Of a DNA stretch of 38,223 bases, positions 964 to 32,207 are shown piece after piece. The position numbers and the translations under genes are program-made. The notes beneath the pieces are model-generated. The model was given only the letters and a program-made list of their open reading frames with translations, did no database searches and was not told the origin of the DNA. Origin of the DNA: Lentisphaerota bacterium (GTDB lineage: Bacteria > Verrucomicrobiota > Kiritimatiellia > JAAZAB01); contig JAAZAB010000323.1 of the NCBI GenBank assembly GCA_012514555.1, forward strand, positions 1 through 38,223, given 5' to 3'. Within the stretch, counting starts at the first letter, position 1. Every line of letters starts with the position of its first letter.

Positions 964-1872
964 TTATTTCGTTTTTCCCGGCCGCGGTCGTTTTCCGCCG
1001 GCGCCGCCGAGCGTTCCTGCGAGCTCCCGGATAAAGGCGGCTAGCTCTTGTTTCAGGTCTTTTCGCTTGAGGCCGAACACGACGTTCGTTTTGATGAAGT
1101 CCATCTTGTTCCCGATGTCGTAGCGCGCGCCCTTGAAGCGGACGCCGTACATGGCGCTGGATTTGACCATCAGCCGCATTGCGTCCGTGAGTTGGATTTC
1201 GTTGTTCTTGCCGCGGCTGACCCGCGCGATGCAGTCGAAAATATCCGGAGTGAAGACGTAGCGGCCGGCGATGGCGAGGGTGGATGGCGCTTCTTCGATC
1301 CTGGGTTTTTCTATGAAGTCCTCGATCATGTAGAGGTTTTTCGACACGAGACTTCCCGCGATCACGCCGTACCGGCTGACCTTCGAGCGCTCAACCTCTT
1401 CCAGGGCGACGACGGACTCGCGGTAGCGCTCGAAAATCTTCATGAGCTGGCGGGTCACGGGCGTGTCGGATTCGACGATCGTGTCGCCAAGGAGCAGGGC
1501 GAAGGGCTCGTTGCCTATGTGGCAGCGCGCGTAGGAGACGGCGTCGCCCAGGCCGTTCATCTCCTTCTGCCACACGAAATGAACGTTGGCCAGGTTCGAG
1601 ATGCGGCGGATGGCGTCGAGCTCAGCGCGCTTGCCGGACTCTTCCAGCTCCGACTCCAGGTCGAAATTGCGGTCAAAATGCTCTTCAATGGCTCTTTTGC
1701 CCCTTCCGATGATCATCAGGATGTCCGTTATGCCCGATGCCACGGCCTCTTCGACCACGTACTGGATGGTCGGCGTGTCAACGATCGGCAGCATCTCCTT
1801 GGGCTGGGACTTGGCCGCGGGCAGGAAGCGGGTTCCGAAACCGGCGGCGGGGATCACGGCTTTGCGGATCAT
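964..1872 (-). CDS. galU: UTP--glucose-1-phosphate uridylyltransferase (GalU)
   Basis: Makes UDP-glucose from UTP and glucose-1-phosphate in the cytoplasm, feeding cell-envelope glycan synthesis. The 302-residue length is normal for bacterial GalU. The N-terminal nucleotide-binding signature is intact (GFGTRFLPAAKSQPKEM, residues about 11-27), as are the LGD motif (about 128-130) and the late region EIQLTDAM (about 225-232). The ATG at 1872 overlaps the upstream kinase stop by 4 bp and has a GGAGA ribosome site 10 bases ahead inside that gene, so the two are translationally coupled. Because the neighbour is a glucuronokinase-like enzyme, this enzyme might also, or instead, use glucuronate-1-phosphate to make UDP-glucuronate, the role of UDP-sugar pyrophosphorylase in plants. 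That is an inference; the sequence itself looks like ordinary GalU. Confidence 0.95.
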   Translation of the reverse strand: MIRKAVIPAAGFGTRFLPAAKSQPKEMLPIVDTPTIQYVVEEAVASGITDILMIIGRGKRAIEEHFDRNFDLESELEESGKRAELDAIRRISNLANVHFVWQKEMNGLGDAVSYARCHIGNEPFALLLGDTIVESDTPVTRQLMKIFERYRESVVALEEVERSKVSRYGVIAGSLVSKNLYMIEDFIEKPRIEEAPSTLAIAGRYVFTPDIFDCIARVSRGKNNEIQLTDAMRLMVKSSAMYGVRFKGARYDIGNKMDFIKTNVVFGLKRKDLKQELAAFIRELAGTLGGAGGKRPRPGKTK

Positions 1873-2894
1873 GACGGGTTTTTCTCCGGTGGTTTGAAGA
1901 CGGGCTTGATGGTTTTTACCTTGATGGCGGCGAGCGCCTCGGCGAGGCGGTTGAACATGGTTTCGTCCTCATAGGTCCCTATGATGGCGCCGCCCGAGCC
2001 CGTGAACTTGGCGCTTGCGCCGGCTGACCGGGCCGTGTCCACCATCAGCAGGTTGCCCGGGCTGAGCTTGTAGATTTTCCGGCGCATGTCGAAATTGGCG
2101 TTGAGCAGCTCCGGTATGCGCTCGAGCCGGCGTTCGACCAGGCAGTTGCGCGCCTGCTCCGCGAGGGCGGCCCAGTACTTCATGGCTTCCACGACCTGCG
2201 GGTCCCCGCAATCGAACCGGCCGCGGATGTCGTTGTGGAACACCCCCGACTCCTCCGAGAGGTCTTCGCGGAAGGCGAGGTAGATATTGGGCAGCAGGCC
2301 GACGTCCAGCTCCTCGTATTCGCCGTGGCCGCATCGCTCCATGATGTCACGCGCGAAGTTCATGTAGACCATGCCCTCGTAGACCTGGGCGACGCGATCC
2401 TGGAGCCCGGCCATGATGCCGAGCTCGTTCTTTTCCACCGACAGGACCAGGCCGGGCTGGACCGGCTTCGGGATCGACACCTCGTAAAACGCCATGAGCG
2501 CGCGCAGGCACGCCGTGATTATGGCGCTTGAGCCGGCCAGGCCGACCTGGGACGGAATGTTCGTGTGGTAGCGGATGGTGAAATTGCGGTTGTCCAGCTT
2601 CACGGCGTTCTCGGCGCAATAGTCGTGAAAGCGTTTGACGGTCGCCTTGAGCAGTCTTATGCCGCCGTAGTAGCCGAACAGACGCACGTCTTCCGCCAGG
2701 CCGTTGATGCTCTTGAATTTCGAATGGTCGCGGGTGTTCGGGAGAATTTCGAGCTCCGGGCTCTGATATAGAATCACTTCCGCGGCGAAATTCTTGAACA
2801 CGAACGAAATGGTTTTCCCGAAATAGCCGTCGGACGGATTGCCTATGAGGCCGGCGCGCGGGTAGGCTTTGGCGTGTATTATCATGCGTTCCAT
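1869..2894 (-). CDS. Glucuronokinase-like GHMP kinase
   Basis: A GHMP-superfamily small-molecule kinase of 341 residues. From memory of the plant glucuronokinase (GlcAK), which phosphorylates D-glucuronate at C1, the match runs along the whole chain: GNPSDGYFGKTIS (18-30), GYYGGIRLL, TNIPSQVGLAGSSAI (the GHMP ATP loop), AGLQDRVAQVYEG, NFDMRRKIY, and the C-terminal GHMP motif AKFTGSGGAI. Such similarity goes beyond generic mevalonate or galactokinase relatives. It overlaps galU by 4 bp, and together they could run glucuronate to glucuronate-1-phosphate to UDP-glucuronate. An in-frame ATG at 2885 is an alternative start: the GGAGG motif lies only 2 bases before the first ATG but 11 before the second. 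A different sugar substrate (heptose, fucose) cannot be excluded from sequence. Confidence 0.85.
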   Translation of the reverse strand: MERMIIHAKAYPRAGLIGNPSDGYFGKTISFVFKNFAAEVILYQSPELEILPNTRDHSKFKSINGLAEDVRLFGYYGGIRLLKATVKRFHDYCAENAVKLDNRNFTIRYHTNIPSQVGLAGSSAIITACLRALMAFYEVSIPKPVQPGLVLSVEKNELGIMAGLQDRVAQVYEGMVYMNFARDIMERCGHGEYEELDVGLLPNIYLAFREDLSEESGVFHNDIRGRFDCGDPQVVEAMKYWAALAEQARNCLVERRLERIPELLNANFDMRRKIYKLSPGNLLMVDTARSAGASAKFTGSGGAIIGTYEDETMFNRLAEALAAIKVKTIKPVFKPPEKNPS

Positions 2895-2921: not shown

Positions 2922-4088
2922 CTAGGGAAGGAATGTCCTGCGCTTTAGCTTGTCGGGAAGGTAATGGTCCAGCACGAAATTGAGGCCGTGCTTTGCGAAC
3001 GCCTGCTGCTCGACGCGGACCTTCATTTCCAGCATGTGGTTAAGGGCCTGCTGCCATTCCTTGTGATGCCTGATGAATGGGTCGTTCTTGAGGGCGTCCC
3101 TTGCGCGCTTTACGTCCACATCCTCGAGCGGGTGCGTGGCGTCCTCGAGCTTGTAGTCGATGATGTCCTGCGGGGTCACGCCGAGGTATTGCGCCTGGGG
3201 CACGCAGAAGAAGCGGTTGATGTGCGCGGCCTGGCCGGATCCGACCTTCAGGGTCCGGTATATGTTGCAGTACCCGTAGGGGTCGCCGTCGGTGAAGGCG
3301 AGCACCGGCAGTTTCTTGTCGTCGGCCAGCCGGCGGATGAACCTGCGGCACGCGCGGGTGGGGACGCCGCTCATCGCGATGAGCACGCAGCGGGCTTTGC
3401 GGTAGTATTGGTGATGGACGAGGCGCTGAAACAGCGAGGCGGTCTCGATGACGAGTATGAACTCGGCGCTCGATTCGAACCGCAGGTGCTCGACCTTTGA
3501 CGGGATGCTCCACGCGCCCGTGCCGAGGCGCTCGCAGTCGATCCGCACGGTCTCGCCGGAGGCCGGGTTCCGGTCGATGACGACAAGCGGCCCGGCCACC
3601 TCTCCGCCGCGCTCCTCCGGGATATAGCCGAGCTGCTCGCGGTTGATTCCGAGCATGGCCTCCATGTCGTCGAGCAGCGAGTCGCTTTCCGGCTGTTCGT
3701 CGAATCGGCATTCGCCCCAGCTCTTGCTGTTGTAGTAGATTTCGCGCTTGCCGGCGATATCGTTCTTGTCGAGCAGGTCTACCTTCGTGGCGGCGAGAAG
3801 GCGCATGCTCTGGGCGAAGGTTTTGACCGTGTTGTAGGAGAGCGTGCGGGTGGACATGCGGTTCAGGATTTCGAAATGACCGCGCTTCAAGTCGTACCTG
3901 ACGTTCGAGAGCGAGCGTATCGGGAACTTCATGCTCGGCCGCGCGTTTCGCTTTACGATGTCGGCGTGAATGCCGCTGGCGATGTCCCGGATGCGCTCGG
4001 AAGCCTCCCGCCTGGACGCCGCCTCGCGCATGTCGGTGGTTTTGCCGCCGCCGTCCGCTTCGCCTTTATTTCTTCGCTTGCCGGGCAT
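2922..4088 (-). CDS. top6A: DNA topoisomerase VI subunit A (Spo11/Top6A)
   Basis: The DNA-cleaving subunit of type IIB topoisomerase, homologous to eukaryotic Spo11. It is 388 residues long, close to the archaeal size. The 5Y-CAP region carries the catalytic tyrosine in KREIYYNSKSW; Y119 aligns with the second tyrosine of the family motif. The Toprim metal site follows, with glutamate in ILVIETASLF (E215) and the DxDP motif TDGDPYGY (D267, D269). All key residues are present, so the enzyme should be active. It starts 18 bp after top6B with AGAGGA ahead of the ATG, an obvious two-gene unit as in archaea. The first 30 residues are a charged, low-complexity extension. Topo VI is scattered and uncommon in bacteria, so transfer from archaea, or ancient retention, is likely. 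Confidence 0.96.
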   Translation of the reverse strand: MPGKRRNKGEADGGGKTTDMREAASRREASERIRDIASGIHADIVKRNARPSMKFPIRSLSNVRYDLKRGHFEILNRMSTRTLSYNTVKTFAQSMRLLAATKVDLLDKNDIAGKREIYYNSKSWGECRFDEQPESDSLLDDMEAMLGINREQLGYIPEERGGEVAGPLVVIDRNPASGETVRIDCERLGTGAWSIPSKVEHLRFESSAEFILVIETASLFQRLVHHQYYRKARCVLIAMSGVPTRACRRFIRRLADDKKLPVLAFTDGDPYGYCNIYRTLKVGSGQAAHINRFFCVPQAQYLGVTPQDIIDYKLEDATHPLEDVDVKRARDALKNDPFIRHHKEWQQALNHMLEMKVRVEQQAFAKHGLNFVLDHYLPDKLKRRTFLP

Positions 4089-4106
4089 ATTGAAATCCTC
4101 TTGTAA

Positions 4107-5819
4107 CTAGCCTGCCTCGAGGTGGGTGCGCTCGAGCATTTTCCGGAGCCGGCCGAGAACCGCGGCCTCGTCCTTGTCGCTCAGGCCGAGGATGGTCTTG
4201 AGCCCGAGCGCGAGATGCGGGAGATACAACGAAATGAAGCTGTGCTTCTTTTCCAGCTCGATCTGGCGCCGCCTGCGGCTCATGTGAACGGACAGGCGCC
4301 GCCCGCACTCCTGGAGCGCGAATGTGATTTCCCTGACGATTTCCGGGTAGTGCGCGATGGCCTCCTTGCTTTCGCTGGTGAACGGGACCCAGACGCTGGC
4401 CATGTGCACCAGGAACACGGCGCGCCCGATCGGAAGCGAGCCCCGCGGCTGGGCGAGCCCGTAGGCTTTCCAGTTCACGCCGGCGACCGCCTTTGTCATC
4501 GCGCAGGCGCCGCCCATGTAGAGCAGGGGCACCTTGTTCGCGAATCGAAGCAGGCGCACGGGCTCATCCCCGGATGCGTCTTCGCCCCCGCCGGGCCCTG
4601 CCAGGGCCACGCCAACCTCGATCTGGAACGGGTTTCCCCGGTACACCTCGGGCGCCCGCGTGACGGCGGTGAAGAAGTCGCCCTGGACTTCCTTTTTCAG
4701 GCCCGCGATGATCTGCGCCTCGCCGATGGGGGACAGGCAGTCCGTTGGCGGCCGCATCAGCCTGGTGTTGTTCATGGCGTTGAACAGGGCCTCGCTTTCC
4801 CGGTGCGCGATGGCCGCGGGCCTGGCGTGCGGGTCGAGCCCGGCGCGCTCGCATATTTCCTGCGCGGCGCGGGCGCTGACGCGGGAGAAGTCCTGCTCGA
4901 GGGCTGATTTAAGGTGTTTCGCGCCGGTGTCCTTCAGCATCTGGATGAGCATGCCAAGCTCCACCCCGTGCGGGTGGGGCTTGATTTCCAGCGGCTGCCG
5001 GGGGCGCTCTTGAACGGCGCGCCGGAATGTGACCCACCCGGCGCCGGCGGGCTGCGGGGCTGCTTCCTTTGCGCTCTCCGCAGTTCCGCCGCCGTTGGCC
5101 GCGGGATCGGCGAGCAGGCAAATCCGGTAGTGGAGATGCAGGTGGGGGTTGACTATGGCACACTGCGCGAGGTATTCGTCCACGGACTGGCGGCCCTTGA
5201 CATAAGCGGCTTCCATCTCGATGGCGACGCAGGTGCCGTGCTTTGAATCGATCGGCTCGGAAGGGACCCCGTCCACGTCGGCCGGGGTGAACCTCGGGGC
5301 CCAGTCGATTTCTGCATCCTTGAGAATAACGGGCTTGTTCTGGCGTGCGTCGATCTGGACTTCAATGTGGTGCGCGACATTGCCCGGCTTGGTTCTGGAC
5401 CGGATGACGGTCGAGTTGCCGGTGGTGAGCTGGCCATACATGCCGGCCGCGCTGATTCCGATGCCCTGCTGGCCCCTGGACATGCGCAGGCGGTGGAACT
5501 TCGAGCCGTAAAGAAGCTTGGCGAAGATTTTCGGAATCTGGCTGCGCACGATTCCCGGCCCGTTGTCGAGCACGGAAACCCGGAAGCGCTTGTCCGCGAC
5601 CTGGACAACCTCCACGGCGATTTCGGGCAGGATTCCAGCCTCGTCGCAGGCGTCGAGGGAGTTGTCCACGGCCTCCTTTACCGCGGTGAGCAGCGCTTTC
5701 TTTGGGTTGTCAAAGCCGAGCAGGTGCCTGTTTTTCAGGAAGAATTCCGAAACGGAAATATCGCGCTGACTCCTGCCCATGGATTCCGCCGTGGCGAAGG
5801 CGGCTTTTTTGGGTGACAT
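4107..5819 (-). CDS. top6B: DNA topoisomerase VI subunit B (Top6B)
   Basis: The ATPase subunit of topoisomerase VI, which clamps and passes a second duplex through the break made by subunit A. The start is set at 5819: AGAGGG lies about 10 bases upstream and the protein then begins MSPKKAAF, although the frame is open to 5948. The resulting 570 residues include the GHKL ATPase motifs EAVDNSLDA (49-57, N-box), DNGPGI (85-90) and RGQQGIGISAAG (115-126), then an H2TH-type middle region (about 300-360) and the transducer domain towards the C terminus. The sequence around the G2 box is the archaeal Top6B type, not GyrB or ParE. It is the first gene of the five-gene operon. No convincing promoter was found in the short gap to the divergent gene at 6048. 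Confidence 0.96.
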   Translation of the reverse strand: MSPKKAAFATAESMGRSQRDISVSEFFLKNRHLLGFDNPKKALLTAVKEAVDNSLDACDEAGILPEIAVEVVQVADKRFRVSVLDNGPGIVRSQIPKIFAKLLYGSKFHRLRMSRGQQGIGISAAGMYGQLTTGNSTVIRSRTKPGNVAHHIEVQIDARQNKPVILKDAEIDWAPRFTPADVDGVPSEPIDSKHGTCVAIEMEAAYVKGRQSVDEYLAQCAIVNPHLHLHYRICLLADPAANGGGTAESAKEAAPQPAGAGWVTFRRAVQERPRQPLEIKPHPHGVELGMLIQMLKDTGAKHLKSALEQDFSRVSARAAQEICERAGLDPHARPAAIAHRESEALFNAMNNTRLMRPPTDCLSPIGEAQIIAGLKKEVQGDFFTAVTRAPEVYRGNPFQIEVGVALAGPGGGEDASGDEPVRLLRFANKVPLLYMGGACAMTKAVAGVNWKAYGLAQPRGSLPIGRAVFLVHMASVWVPFTSESKEAIAHYPEIVREITFALQECGRRLSVHMSRRRRQIELEKKHSFISLYLPHLALGLKTILGLSDKDEAAVLGRLRKMLERTHLEAG

Positions 5820-6047
5820 ATCGGAATCCCTCTTTCGTCCGGCTCGTGCTGCCGGCGGCCGCCCTTGCCGGGGCGCCGGCGCTTTCCGCTGACAAGCCGC
5901 TGAATGGGAAAGCAGTTTGCACCATGCGGGGCCCGGGGTCAAGAACACTCATGAACCATAAAAAGCGGTTGCCGCAACCCTGAAACTTGAATAGATTGGC
6001 CGCTTGTCAGGCGAATGGCGCTTGTTTCATCCGCGGGAGAAATCGGA

Positions 6048-8486
6048 ATGCATGGGTGTCGGGGCATGGGCTTGTCATTGCGGTTTAATCGCGCTACAAC
6101 CGCTCTAGGCCCTTTTTTTGCCGCGCTGGCGCTTTTCGGGCCATGGGCGCCCTGCGGCCCTGTCTTTGCGGCGGCGGTTCATCCTTTTGCATCCGCGGCT
6201 GCGTCCGCGTGGGTTCCCGGAGGCGGCGCGCCCGCGGCGGCGCCGGCCCCGGGCGGGGGGCTTGAATTCCGGTGCGTTGCCGAAGCCGGCGAGCGGACTT
6301 GCTGGGACCGGGCTCTGGACTTGAACCTGGCGGAGTGCGCCGCCATCGAGCTGGACTGCGAAAGCAGGCCGCCGGGCGCGTTTGCGGCAATTTATCTCTA
6401 CCTTCGCAGCGGACGCGGCTGGTATGTCTGGCGCGGCCGCATCAACGAGGCCGGCCGGCAGACGCTGTATTTCCAGCCGTCCCAGGCTTCAGTGGAAGGC
6501 AAGCCGAAAGGCTGGAACGCGATTTCCGGCCTGCGCCTGGCCCTGGTTCGCGGCGCCGGGCCGGAGGGGCGCCTGGCGGTGTTCGGCATGCGCGCCTCCG
6601 AGTGCCGGGTGGCGATCGTGCGCGCCGGCGAGTCTGCCGGCGGGGCCAAAGAGCAGGCGGCGGCCCGCGGCGCCTGCGCCCGGGTCAGCCGCTGGCTTTT
6701 CGACATGGGCGTGGCAAACCAGACGCTTGACGAGGCGGCCGCCGCTTCAGGGGGACTGGAGAAGATGACGCTGGCCATCCTGCCATACAATCCCGATGTG
6801 CCGGGTCGCCTGCTTCGGGCGCTGCGCCGCTTCGAGCGCGGCGGGGGCCGGCTGATGGTCTGTTATTCCTCCGACGCGGGGCTTGCCGGCTTGATGCGCA
6901 TGGAGCTTGGCCCCTACAAGGCCGCCGGGAATCCGGGGCAATGGAGCAGCATGGTTTTCAGCCGCGATGCGCCGGCCGGGGTTCCATCGCGCGTTGGACA
7001 GGAATCCGGGAACATCAGGGTTGTCAGGCCGCTCCCGCCGGACTCGCGCGTGATCGCATGGTGGGCTGATGCCTCGGGAAAAACCGGCGATGATCCTGCC
7101 TGGGTCCGATCGGGCGCGGGCGTATGGATGACGCACATCCTTCAGAACGGAGATGACGAGAACAAGAAGCGCATGATGGCCGCCCTGCTTGGCGCATACG
7201 ACCCGGAGGTTCTGCGCGCCGCCGCAAGGCGCGCTGCGGCCCGCGCCGTCAATGTCGGGCCCCATGGCGGCCTGGCTTCGGCGCGCGCCATTCTTGCCGA
7301 GGCGGCCACAGCCGGAACCGGGGCTGCCGCGCGCGAGCGCCTCGCCCGCGCCGAGGCGCGGGAGAGCGCCATGCGCGAGGCTTTGCGCGGAGGGCGCCAT
7401 ATCGAGGTGCTGGAAGCGGCTGCTGATATAAAGGCTTTGCTCACAGAGGCTTACGCTCTTGCCCAGAGCCCCACCGCAATTCCTTTCCGGGGCGTCTGGA
7501 ATCATTCGGGCATGGGCTTGTATCCCGGGGATTGGCCCCGAACGTGCCGCGAACTGAAGGCTGCGGGCATTCGCGCCGTGTTTCCCAACGTGCTGTGGGC
7601 CGGGCAGGCTCACTATCCAAGCCAAGTTGTGCCCTGCTCGGACATTGGCCGCATGTACGGGGACCAGGTGAAAGCCTGTGTTGCGGCCGCCCATGCCGAA
7701 GGCCTTGAGGCGCATGCATGGAAGGTTTGTTGGAACCTTGGCGGCGCGCCCGCGGCGCACGTGGCGCGGCTTAAGAAGGAGGGGCGGCTCCAGCGATCGG
7801 CCAACGGCGCGGCTCACATCTGGCTCTGCCCTTCGAATCCGGATAATGTCCGCCAGGAACTGAACGCCATCATGGAACTGGTTCGCAACTATCCCGTGGA
7901 TGGCGTTCACCTCGATTATGCGCGGTTCCCGGATTCTCAGTCCTGCGTCTGCCCCGTTTGCCGGAAGAACTTCGAAGCCAAACGCGGCCGGGTTGTCCGG
8001 CGCTGGCCTGCCGACGTGATCACGGGAGCGCTTGCAGACGAATACAGGGCCTGGCGCAGTTCCGTAATGACCGGTTTCATCAGGGCGGCGCGCGGCGTGA
8101 TGCGAAGCGCCAGGCCGGCCGCCAAGCTCTCCGCGGCGGTGTACGGACAATATCCCCAATGCGCCGGGACCATGGGGCAGTCCTGGGGCTCATGGGTGGA
8201 GGAGGGGCTGGTGGATTTTGTCTGCCCCATGAACTATGACACGGACCCGGCGTCTTTCGCCGTCTCCGTCCGGAAGCAGCTTGCCCTGCCGCGGGCGCGC
8301 GGAAGGATATACCCCGGCATCGGCGTGACCGCCGTCGAAAGCCGGCTGCCGCCGGACCAGGTGATTGCGCAAATTCGCGCGGTTGCCGACGCCGGCGCCG
8401 CGGGATTCATGCTTTTCGACCTGAATCCCACGCTCCAGCGGGAGACGCTCCCGATTCTGCGCCTCGGCATAACGCGCCCGGAATGA
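6048..8486 (+). CDS. Secreted glycosyl-hydrolase-like GHL10 (YngK/DUF187-type) protein
   Basis: An 812-residue exported protein. The start at 6048 is preferred over 6015 because GGGAGA lies about 7 bases ahead. A signal peptide covers about residues 1-43, ending near VFAAA. Residues about 60-185 look like a beta-sandwich domain. About 190-370 resembles the glutamine-amidotransferase-like domain often found in such proteins, and 370-470 is helical and alanine/arginine-rich. The C-terminal third (about 478-805) is a GHL10 TIM barrel: FRGVWNHSG, VDGVHLDYARFP, FVCPMNYD, YPGIGV and GFMLFDLNP are typical positions. The substrate is unknown; family members probably act on envelope or plant-type glycans. 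A CPVC pair (residues about 636-639) sits just after the LDYARFP strand. It is divergent from the Topo VI operon and is followed by tRNA-Cys. Confidence 0.88.
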   Translation: MHGCRGMGLSLRFNRATTALGPFFAALALFGPWAPCGPVFAAAVHPFASAAASAWVPGGGAPAAAPAPGGGLEFRCVAEAGERTCWDRALDLNLAECAAIELDCESRPPGAFAAIYLYLRSGRGWYVWRGRINEAGRQTLYFQPSQASVEGKPKGWNAISGLRLALVRGAGPEGRLAVFGMRASECRVAIVRAGESAGGAKEQAAARGACARVSRWLFDMGVANQTLDEAAAASGGLEKMTLAILPYNPDVPGRLLRALRRFERGGGRLMVCYSSDAGLAGLMRMELGPYKAAGNPGQWSSMVFSRDAPAGVPSRVGQESGNIRVVRPLPPDSRVIAWWADASGKTGDDPAWVRSGAGVWMTHILQNGDDENKKRMMAALLGAYDPEVLRAAARRAAARAVNVGPHGGLASARAILAEAATAGTGAAARERLARAEARESAMREALRGGRHIEVLEAAADIKALLTEAYALAQSPTAIPFRGVWNHSGMGLYPGDWPRTCRELKAAGIRAVFPNVLWAGQAHYPSQVVPCSDIGRMYGDQVKACVAAAHAEGLEAHAWKVCWNLGGAPAAHVARLKKEGRLQRSANGAAHIWLCPSNPDNVRQELNAIMELVRNYPVDGVHLDYARFPDSQSCVCPVCRKNFEAKRGRVVRRWPADVITGALADEYRAWRSSVMTGFIRAARGVMRSARPAAKLSAAVYGQYPQCAGTMGQSWGSWVEEGLVDFVCPMNYDTDPASFAVSVRKQLALPRARGRIYPGIGVTAVESRLPPDQVIAQIRAVADAGAAGFMLFDLNPTLQRETLPILRLGITRPE

Positions 8487-31133: not shown

Positions 31134-32147
31134 TCAGCGGTTTGCGTACATGCGCTGGTAGTAGCTGCGATATTCGCCGCTGCGGATGCGCTCCCACCAC
31201 TGGCGGTTTGCCAGGTACCATTCGATGGTGGTCTTGAGGGCCTGGTCGAAGGAATAAGCCGGCGTCCAACCGAGCTCGCCGCGAATCTTGCGGGCGTCAA
31301 TCGCGTAGCGGCGGTCGTGCCCGGGCCGGTCGTTCACGAACTTGATGAGGCTCTCAGGCTTGCCGAGGTGCCTCAGGATCAGCCTCACGACATCGAGGTT
31401 GGGCACGTCGTGCATGGCGCCGATGTTGTAGACTTCGCCGGCTCTTCCCTTGCGCAGCACAAGGTCCACCGCGCGGCAATGGTCCTCGACGAATATCCAG
31501 TCGCGGACCTGCATGCCGTCGCCGTACACGGGCAGGGGCTTGTCCTCGAGGGCGTTGGCGATCATGAGCGGAATGAGCTTCTCGGGGAACTGATAGGGGC
31601 CGAAGTTGTTCGAGCAGCGGGTTGTGACGGCGTCAAGGCCGTGCGCCTTGAAGGCGGCCCGGACAATGAAGTCCGACCCGGCCTTGGTGGCCGCGTAGGG
31701 GTTGTTCGGCTGAACGGGGGTCAGCTCGGTGAAGCGGCCTTCGCCTTCCACGCTTCCGTAGACCTCGTCGGTCGAGACCTGGAGGAATCGCGCGACGCGG
31801 TGTTCCAGGGCCGCGCTTACGAGGAACTGGGTTCCAAGTATGTTCGTCCTGATGAAGGCTTCCGGGCCGAGGTGGATGCTGCGGTCAACGTGGCTTTCGG
31901 CGGCGAAATGAACGACGGCGTCGAACTTGTGGGCTTTGAACACCGCGTTCACCTGGGCCTTGTCCGTGATGTCGGCCCGGACAAACGAGTAGCGCGGATC
32001 CTTTTCCACGCCAACCAGGTTTTCCAGGTTGCCCGCATAGGTCAGCGCGTCGAGGTTGACCACCTGGTCGCCGGGCCGGGCGGCAAGAACGTGCCGGATG
32101 AAGTTGCTGCCAATGAAGCCCGCGCCTCCGGTGACAAGGAGAATCAT
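31134..32147 (-). CDS. rfbB: dTDP-glucose 4,6-dehydratase (RfbB)
   Basis: A 337-residue short-chain dehydrogenase/reductase making dTDP-4-keto-6-deoxyglucose, an early step to rhamnose and other deoxysugars. The ATG at 32147 has AAGGA 8 bases upstream. Rossmann motif GGAGFIGSNF (about 7-16), ESHVDRSI, the catalytic region STDEVYGS (with the Asp-Glu pair) and YAATKAGSD (Tyr-x3-Lys) are intact, as are NNFGPYQFPEKLIP and RDWIFVEDHC. RfbA, C and D are not adjacent; the gene sits alone in a run with pilus and helicase genes. Confidence 0.95.
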   Translation of the reverse strand: MILLVTGGAGFIGSNFIRHVLAARPGDQVVNLDALTYAGNLENLVGVEKDPRYSFVRADITDKAQVNAVFKAHKFDAVVHFAAESHVDRSIHLGPEAFIRTNILGTQFLVSAALEHRVARFLQVSTDEVYGSVEGEGRFTELTPVQPNNPYAATKAGSDFIVRAAFKAHGLDAVTTRCSNNFGPYQFPEKLIPLMIANALEDKPLPVYGDGMQVRDWIFVEDHCRAVDLVLRKGRAGEVYNIGAMHDVPNLDVVRLILRHLGKPESLIKFVNDRPGHDRRYAIDARKIRGELGWTPAYSFDQALKTTIEWYLANRQWWERIRSGEYRSYYQRMYANR

Positions 32148-32207
32148 CAAGCCCGTCCTTTCTTCCAGGGGTTTTTGGGCGGCTTTCAGGGCCCTGCAAA
32201 GGGGTTT

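Follow-up and report, generated by a model that had tools for sequence, protein, structure and literature searches.

A predicted glucuronokinase paired with a GalU-type uridylyltransferase in a Lentisphaerota bacterium: a candidate bacterial route for glucuronate salvage

Introduction

The usual account of UDP-glucuronate formation in bacteria is oxidation of UDP-glucose. A salvage route from free glucuronate, in which a sugar-1-kinase is followed by a pyrophosphorylase, has so far been described for plants and some animals. In plants, the kinase (GLCAK1 in Arabidopsis) is followed by a UDP-sugar pyrophosphorylase (USP), a promiscuous enzyme of the PF01704 type that is encoded by an unlinked gene. 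Two glucuronokinases are biochemically proven, those of Arabidopsis (AAV74231.1) and zebrafish (NP_001107088.1); glucuronokinase shows unusual conservation from plant to fish, whereas the sequence of Arabidopsis galacturonokinase diverges widely from it (PMC3938481). The zebrafish kinase is strictly glucuronate-specific and is joined to a nucleotidyltransferase domain of about 260 amino acids in the single polypeptide DrGKUP, and fusions of this kind are present in fishes, frogs and other lower animals (PMC3938481). The nucleotidyltransferase domain was assigned to a group with short enzymes of bacteria and archaea, the prokaryotic members of which consist of the pyrophosphorylase domain only, and the pyrophosphorylase activity of DrGKUP was extremely low in vitro, a fully functional homologue being missing as a positive control (PMC3938481). 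A comparable combination of GHMP sugar-1-kinase and nucleotidyltransferase for sugar salvage is the Bacteroides L-fucokinase/GDP-fucose pyrophosphorylase FKP (PMC6468028), which differs in sugar and nucleotide and is a single fused polypeptide.

Here we describe two overlapping genes in a contig of 38,223 nucleotides (JAAZAB010000323.1, the whole of which is referred to as the window) from a Lentisphaerota bacterium of the Kiritimatiellia, which a first-pass annotation had read as a glucuronokinase coupled to GalU. The pair is like the plant system in kinase family, as judged against a provisional plant sequence, and in its two-step kinase-to-pyrophosphorylase logic, but the partner is of the GalU/NTP_transferase type and its gene adjoins that of the kinase. 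A further difference is that none of 10 genomes from the window's family yielded a PF01704 gene, nor was myo-inositol oxygenase, which could supply glucuronate, detected in 58 relatives, in a search that had no positive control. The zebrafish and Xenopus DrGKUP, likened here by description, joins the same described kinase family to a bacterial-like nucleotidyltransferase and so parallels the bacterial pair, though it is one polypeptide where the bacterial system has two genes, and the bacterial partner is larger, at about 300 amino acids, and of the GalU type.

Results

The kinase gene lies at positions 1869 to 2894 on the minus strand and encodes a predicted glucuronokinase (GHMP sugar-1-kinase) of 341 amino acids, as judged by Pfam, orthologue alignment, a tree and an AlphaFold model. 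Orthologues align with it from residues 3-5 onwards, which makes Met4, at base 2885, the probable conserved start. The protein exceeds the Pfam cut-offs for both domains, GHMP_kinases_N and GHMP_kinases_C, and the AlphaFold model (mean pLDDT 92) has the GHMP fold, with GHMP matches in Foldseek at E 1e-17. An alignment of 74 bacterial sequences contains 41 invariant columns. The N-terminal sugar-kinase motif GNPSD (residues 18-22; 2829 to 2843, minus strand) is invariant in the 74 orthologues and in the provisional plant sequence, and the GHMP ATP-binding loop PSQVGLAGSSA (residues 114-124; 2523 to 2555, minus strand) was placed by comparison with solved structures and by the orthologue alignment. 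Residue Asp166 in GLQDR (2397 to 2399, minus strand) aligns with the QD of heptose kinases in structure and orthologue alignments and is likely the catalytic Asp.

The earlier claim of a likeness to plant glucuronokinase along the whole length was borne out, in that the kinase is 46% identical over 306 amino acids (E 1e-91) to Arabidopsis GLCAK1 (362 amino acids), the reference being a provisional sequence rather than a database record, and one set down after the window had been read. Of the 41 columns without variation in the bacterial orthologues, this provisional sequence matches 39, and because it has nearly all of the family-specific invariants, the match is hard to explain by chance. In a tree of a quick type, with an outgroup represented by partial segments, the provisional Arabidopsis sequence falls among the bacterial kinases, and a branch with SH-aLRT 98 splits off HddA, mevalonate kinase and a Verrucomicrobiota paralogue; the kinase thus does not group with the kinases of another sugar, the outcome that would have spoken against the first-pass annotation. 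With the provisional reference, full-length homology that is closer than to other GHMP kinases places the protein in the glucuronokinase family.

We consider it quite unlikely that the substrate of the kinase is another sugar, such as galacturonate, a heptose or another uronate, and that the pair makes a different UDP-sugar. GHMP specificities drift, the sugar pocket is not readable from the kinase model, and the closest solved structures by sequence and by fold are heptose and mevalonate kinases, with HddA and WcbL being the nearest solved relatives. However, the structural matches are remote (11-19% identity), HddA and WcbL are about 16-19% identical and separate in the tree, and the solved chains nearest by sequence score 38 bits or less, against a likeness to glucuronokinase that extends over the whole length. 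The protein is below every NCBIfam kinase cut-off, and the best of these, HddA, is missed by far, with a score of 36 bits where 600 are required, so that by this equivalog score it is not an HddA heptose-7-phosphate kinase. A profile of the kinase family reached 71 bits at most with solved chains; from scores this low, no glucuronokinase structure appears to have been solved, and none was found in the PDB. The conservation of glucuronokinase between plant and fish and the divergence of galacturonokinase from it (PMC3938481) also argue against another sugar, as do the UDP-glucose dehydrogenase and epimerase neighbors considered below, which point to UDP-glucuronate.

The partner gene, at positions 964 to 1872 on the minus strand, encodes a GalU-family UTP:sugar-1-phosphate uridylyltransferase of 302 amino acids that is predicted, from its open reading frame, TIGR01099 and residue comparison, to use glucuronate-1-phosphate. 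It scores above the TIGR01099 galU cut-off (369.6 versus 326.8 bits), and its Pfam family is PF00483, not UDPGP (PF01704). The 4-bp overlap with the kinase gene that had been noted is correctly placed, at 1869 to 1872, reading ATGA on the coding (minus) strand, and is consistent with translational coupling. The proposed coupling to a GalU-type enzyme also extends well beyond the window: by inspection of the flanks of 106 loci, 71 have a nucleotidyltransferase gene next to the kinase gene, in the same orientation and no more than 300 bp away. This is not a count of independent events, because the loci are related to one another and were drawn from the better matches. Among these partners, 62 are downstream and nine upstream of the kinase, the median gap is -4 bp, 65 are within 100 bp, and 18 share the 4-bp offset of the window pair. 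The partners form several length classes (about 242-312 amino acids), with short ones of 242-272 amino acids being upstream of the kinase in a few loci, and the two gene orders together with the several length classes argue for repeated pairing. A GalU with 50-64% identity is encoded elsewhere in 14 genomes that lack adjacency (13 with GDT, one with GDA at the motif discussed below), and for 18 of the 106 loci no close GalU was detected, either adjoining the kinase or elsewhere in the genome. Across 58 relatives, a close GalU is present in 18 of 19 kinase-positive and none of 39 kinase-negative genomes (P 4e-14, uncorrected for ancestry), the sole kinase-positive exception being a 59%-complete draft.

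Neighbors beyond the partner are not conserved in the flanks of the 106 loci, ruling out a wider conserved operon. Two apparent bacterial fusions of kinase and partner were rejected: in L043 the 743-amino acid frame arises from reading an upstream glycosyltransferase gene in the wrong frame, and L148 has separate overlapping frames, although the open frame is 1,311 amino acids. An apparent second kinase copy adjoining the first in L023 and L030 was a clustering artefact, the protein being laminin-G-like and having no similarity to the kinase. Four loci of one family (L079, L083, L109 and L118; f31) have a hexokinase-family gene or its homologue directly 5' of the kinase, with Pfam Hexokinase_1 and Hexokinase_2 matches in L079 and L109. 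In the window, both topoisomerase VI subunits are encoded directly upstream of the kinase (2922 to 5948, minus strand; B at 5948-4107, A at 4088-2922); topoisomerase VI is mainly an archaeal and plant enzyme. Divergent from the pair, at 6015 to 8486 on the plus strand, is a gene for an 823-amino acid protein with a glycosyl-hydrolase-like 10 domain (PF02638), which has a 32% identical homologue near the pair in L047.

In the case of the sugar pocket, the paired enzymes share with the UDP-glucose pyrophosphorylases B. subtilis YngB and H. pylori GalU the fold family, the Mg-binding Asp, the phosphate Lys, and the sugar-binding Glu and Gly, but they replace GDD with GDT, GDA or GDS and usually have GLGDA for GLGHA, position 110 being D instead of H in 80% of them. 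The residue after the Mg-binding Asp helps to hold glucose in YngB (Asp134; PMC7961091), and its P. aeruginosa counterpart D131 contacts glucose, the D131A variant being nearly inactive, with Val at the corresponding position in Klebsiella (PMC11796359). In the window enzyme, alignment and literature place the Mg2+-binding Asp130 next to Thr131 (1480 to 1485, minus strand), so the glucose-contacting Asp of UDP-glucose pyrophosphorylase (EC 2.7.7.9), which is Val in enteric GalU, appears to be replaced by Thr. Among 72 paired enzymes this residue is T in 59, A in eight, S in three, C in one and N in one, and never D or V. A set of 18 unpaired controls, comprising E. coli GalU, four enzymes of solved structure and 13 plasmid-collection records, has D in 14, V in two, M in one and T in one. 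The lack of an acid at this point of the sugar pocket would fit a substrate with a carboxyl group. The nucleotidyltransferase tree gives no direction for the Asp/Thr change, because it places the characterized UDP-glucose pyrophosphorylases within the paired enzymes at weakly supported branches. The phylum also has an unpaired GalU-like subfamily with GDH rather than GDD or GDT (L158-L165, L182-L184, L186-L191, L193 and L194), mostly in long open frames of up to about 820 amino acids.

These comparisons bear on whether the kinase is a true glucuronokinase whose neighbor is an ordinary UDP-glucose pyrophosphorylase that shares the operon by chance, with glucuronate-1-phosphate being activated otherwise or by promiscuity, which we regard as unlikely. 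The neighbor does exceed the galU equivalog cut-off, and neither a second GalU-type enzyme nor one of the PF01704 type was found in the window's family, so it might make UDP-glucose as well. Against a chance neighbor are the strict co-occurrence of this GalU with the kinase (in the relatives scanned, and unlike GalU and YngB, it is found only together with glucuronokinase), the repeated pairing in both gene orders and the consistent loss of the glucose-contacting Asp. One 96%-complete genome of the window's family (G002) has neither the kinase nor GalU nor PF01704, from which it follows that members of the family can grow without the paired GalU.

The first-pass annotation had also proposed the pair as an alternative to UDP-glucose dehydrogenase, which can stand for at most this genome and some close relatives. 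No UDP-glucose dehydrogenase above the cut-off was found in the window's genome, and three family members with near-complete genomes (G003, G005 and G007) encode just a dehydrogenase-like protein of ~300-325 amino acids that lacks the UDP-binding C-terminal domain. One such protein, of 325 amino acids, is encoded at 504-1481 on the minus strand of L050, and equivalent partial matches occur in most family members. We reject this absence as proof of replacement, since the draft reaches 88% completeness and the short dehydrogenase-like protein occurs in relatives, though salvage may replace UDP-glucose oxidation in part of the window's family. As a general statement the proposal fails: a full dehydrogenase is present in another family member (G006) and in most kinase-bearing members of the class, so salvage usually accompanies oxidation, and in one family the dehydrogenase is in the same cluster. 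In three loci from two genomes, none of which has an adjoining nucleotidyltransferase, a UDP-glucose 6-dehydrogenase gene is directly upstream of the kinase, at 8-12 bp (TuaD type in L131; PRK15057 type in L137 and L138). Downstream of the kinase in L138 is an epimerase gene, for which the closest proteins of solved structure are 5u4q, 6zl6 and MoeE5, and L131 has a similar gene downstream; we take 6zl6 to be the Bacillus cereus UDP-glucuronate 4-epimerase and MoeE5 to have UDP-glucuronate 4-epimerase activity. The B. cereus enzyme is described in PMC7984243. A window gene of the SDR type (31134-32150) was ruled out as a consumer of UDP-glucuronate, being RmlB, dTDP-glucose 4,6-dehydratase, and GH88, looked for as a possible source of glucuronate, gave only a sub-threshold match in the window's genome.

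The kinase is distributed widely. Orthologues with full-length or near-full-length scores are present in 19 of 58 near relatives, and full-length orthologues of 45-70% identity in 125 of 388 evenly sampled Verrucomicrobiota genomes, which puts the family far beyond chance. Others were found in metagenome-assembled genomes of Spirochaetaceae (Spirochaetota), Caldilineaceae and another Chloroflexota, and Raymondbacteria. The cultured isolate Rufibacter tibetensis carries a kinase-GalU pair on a mobilizable plasmid (NZ_CP012644.1; L197, 8004-9942, plus strand), annotated as "GHMP kinase" (WP_062546164.1) and "GalU" (WP_062546163.1), with 49% and 57% identity, respectively; its GalU has GDT, and its kinase lacks Arg80, which is invariant across the 74-sequence alignment. 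Two IMG/VR contigs of 47-48 kb also have glucuronokinase-like genes (L195, 3001-4020, plus strand, 49% identity; L196, 3001-3987, plus strand, 39% identity), with RecA-like and queuosine-pathway-like neighbors in L195, suggesting the possibility of phage-borne sugar activation on these contigs. The kinase had no match in 50,697 phage records, and a search of a viral structure library gave no meaningful match.

Discussion

We propose, with a probability of roughly two in three, that the two genes form an operon for a glucuronokinase and a uridylyltransferase adapted to glucuronate-1-phosphate, which together would make UDP-glucuronate from free D-glucuronate. The GHMP kinase, presumably expressed together with its partner, would use ATP to phosphorylate D-glucuronate at C1, and the adjacent GalU-type enzyme would convert the resulting glucuronate-1-phosphate and UTP to UDP-glucuronate and pyrophosphate, with UDP-glucuronate presumably entering glycan synthesis either directly or after 4-epimerization. 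The pair might instead run in reverse in vivo, from UDP-glucuronate to glucuronate for catabolism or signaling, given that pyrophosphorylases are reversible, but the reaction of ATP-dependent sugar-1-kinases runs in effect one way, to the sugar phosphate, and a search of 10 members of the window's family detected no uronate isomerase, making this highly improbable. Building on the salvage reading, a more specific proposal, which we offer tentatively and at somewhat less than even odds, is that the paired nucleotidyltransferases act as dedicated UTP:glucuronate-1-phosphate uridylyltransferases whose sugar specificity is set by the difference between GDD and GDT, GDA or GDS, that bacterial lineages joined them with glucuronokinase in both gene orders in parallel to the animal fusion, and that the pair stands in for UDP-glucose dehydrogenase in the window's family.

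No paper on a bacterial glucuronokinase was found in the open-access literature, which was the scope of our search. The name "glucuronokinase" does appear in tables of predicted functions for bacterial communities (PMC8571626), and some of these genes may therefore already be labeled by automatic annotation. In other cases the present annotation conceals the pair, as on the Rufibacter plasmid, and R. tibetensis would be a tractable source for assays. The bacterial partner enzymes are candidates for the functional homologue that the zebrafish study lacked, and the GDD/GDT difference offers a one-residue hypothesis of specificity. An NAD-free route to UDP-glucuronate would also be useful in glycan synthesis. 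The recurrence of the pair across bacterial phyla suggests that recycling of free glucuronic acid is within reach of many bacteria, and if the proposal is correct, about one-third of the sampled Verrucomicrobiota, together with members of other phyla, would be able to recycle glucuronate directly into glycan precursors without NAD-dependent oxidation.
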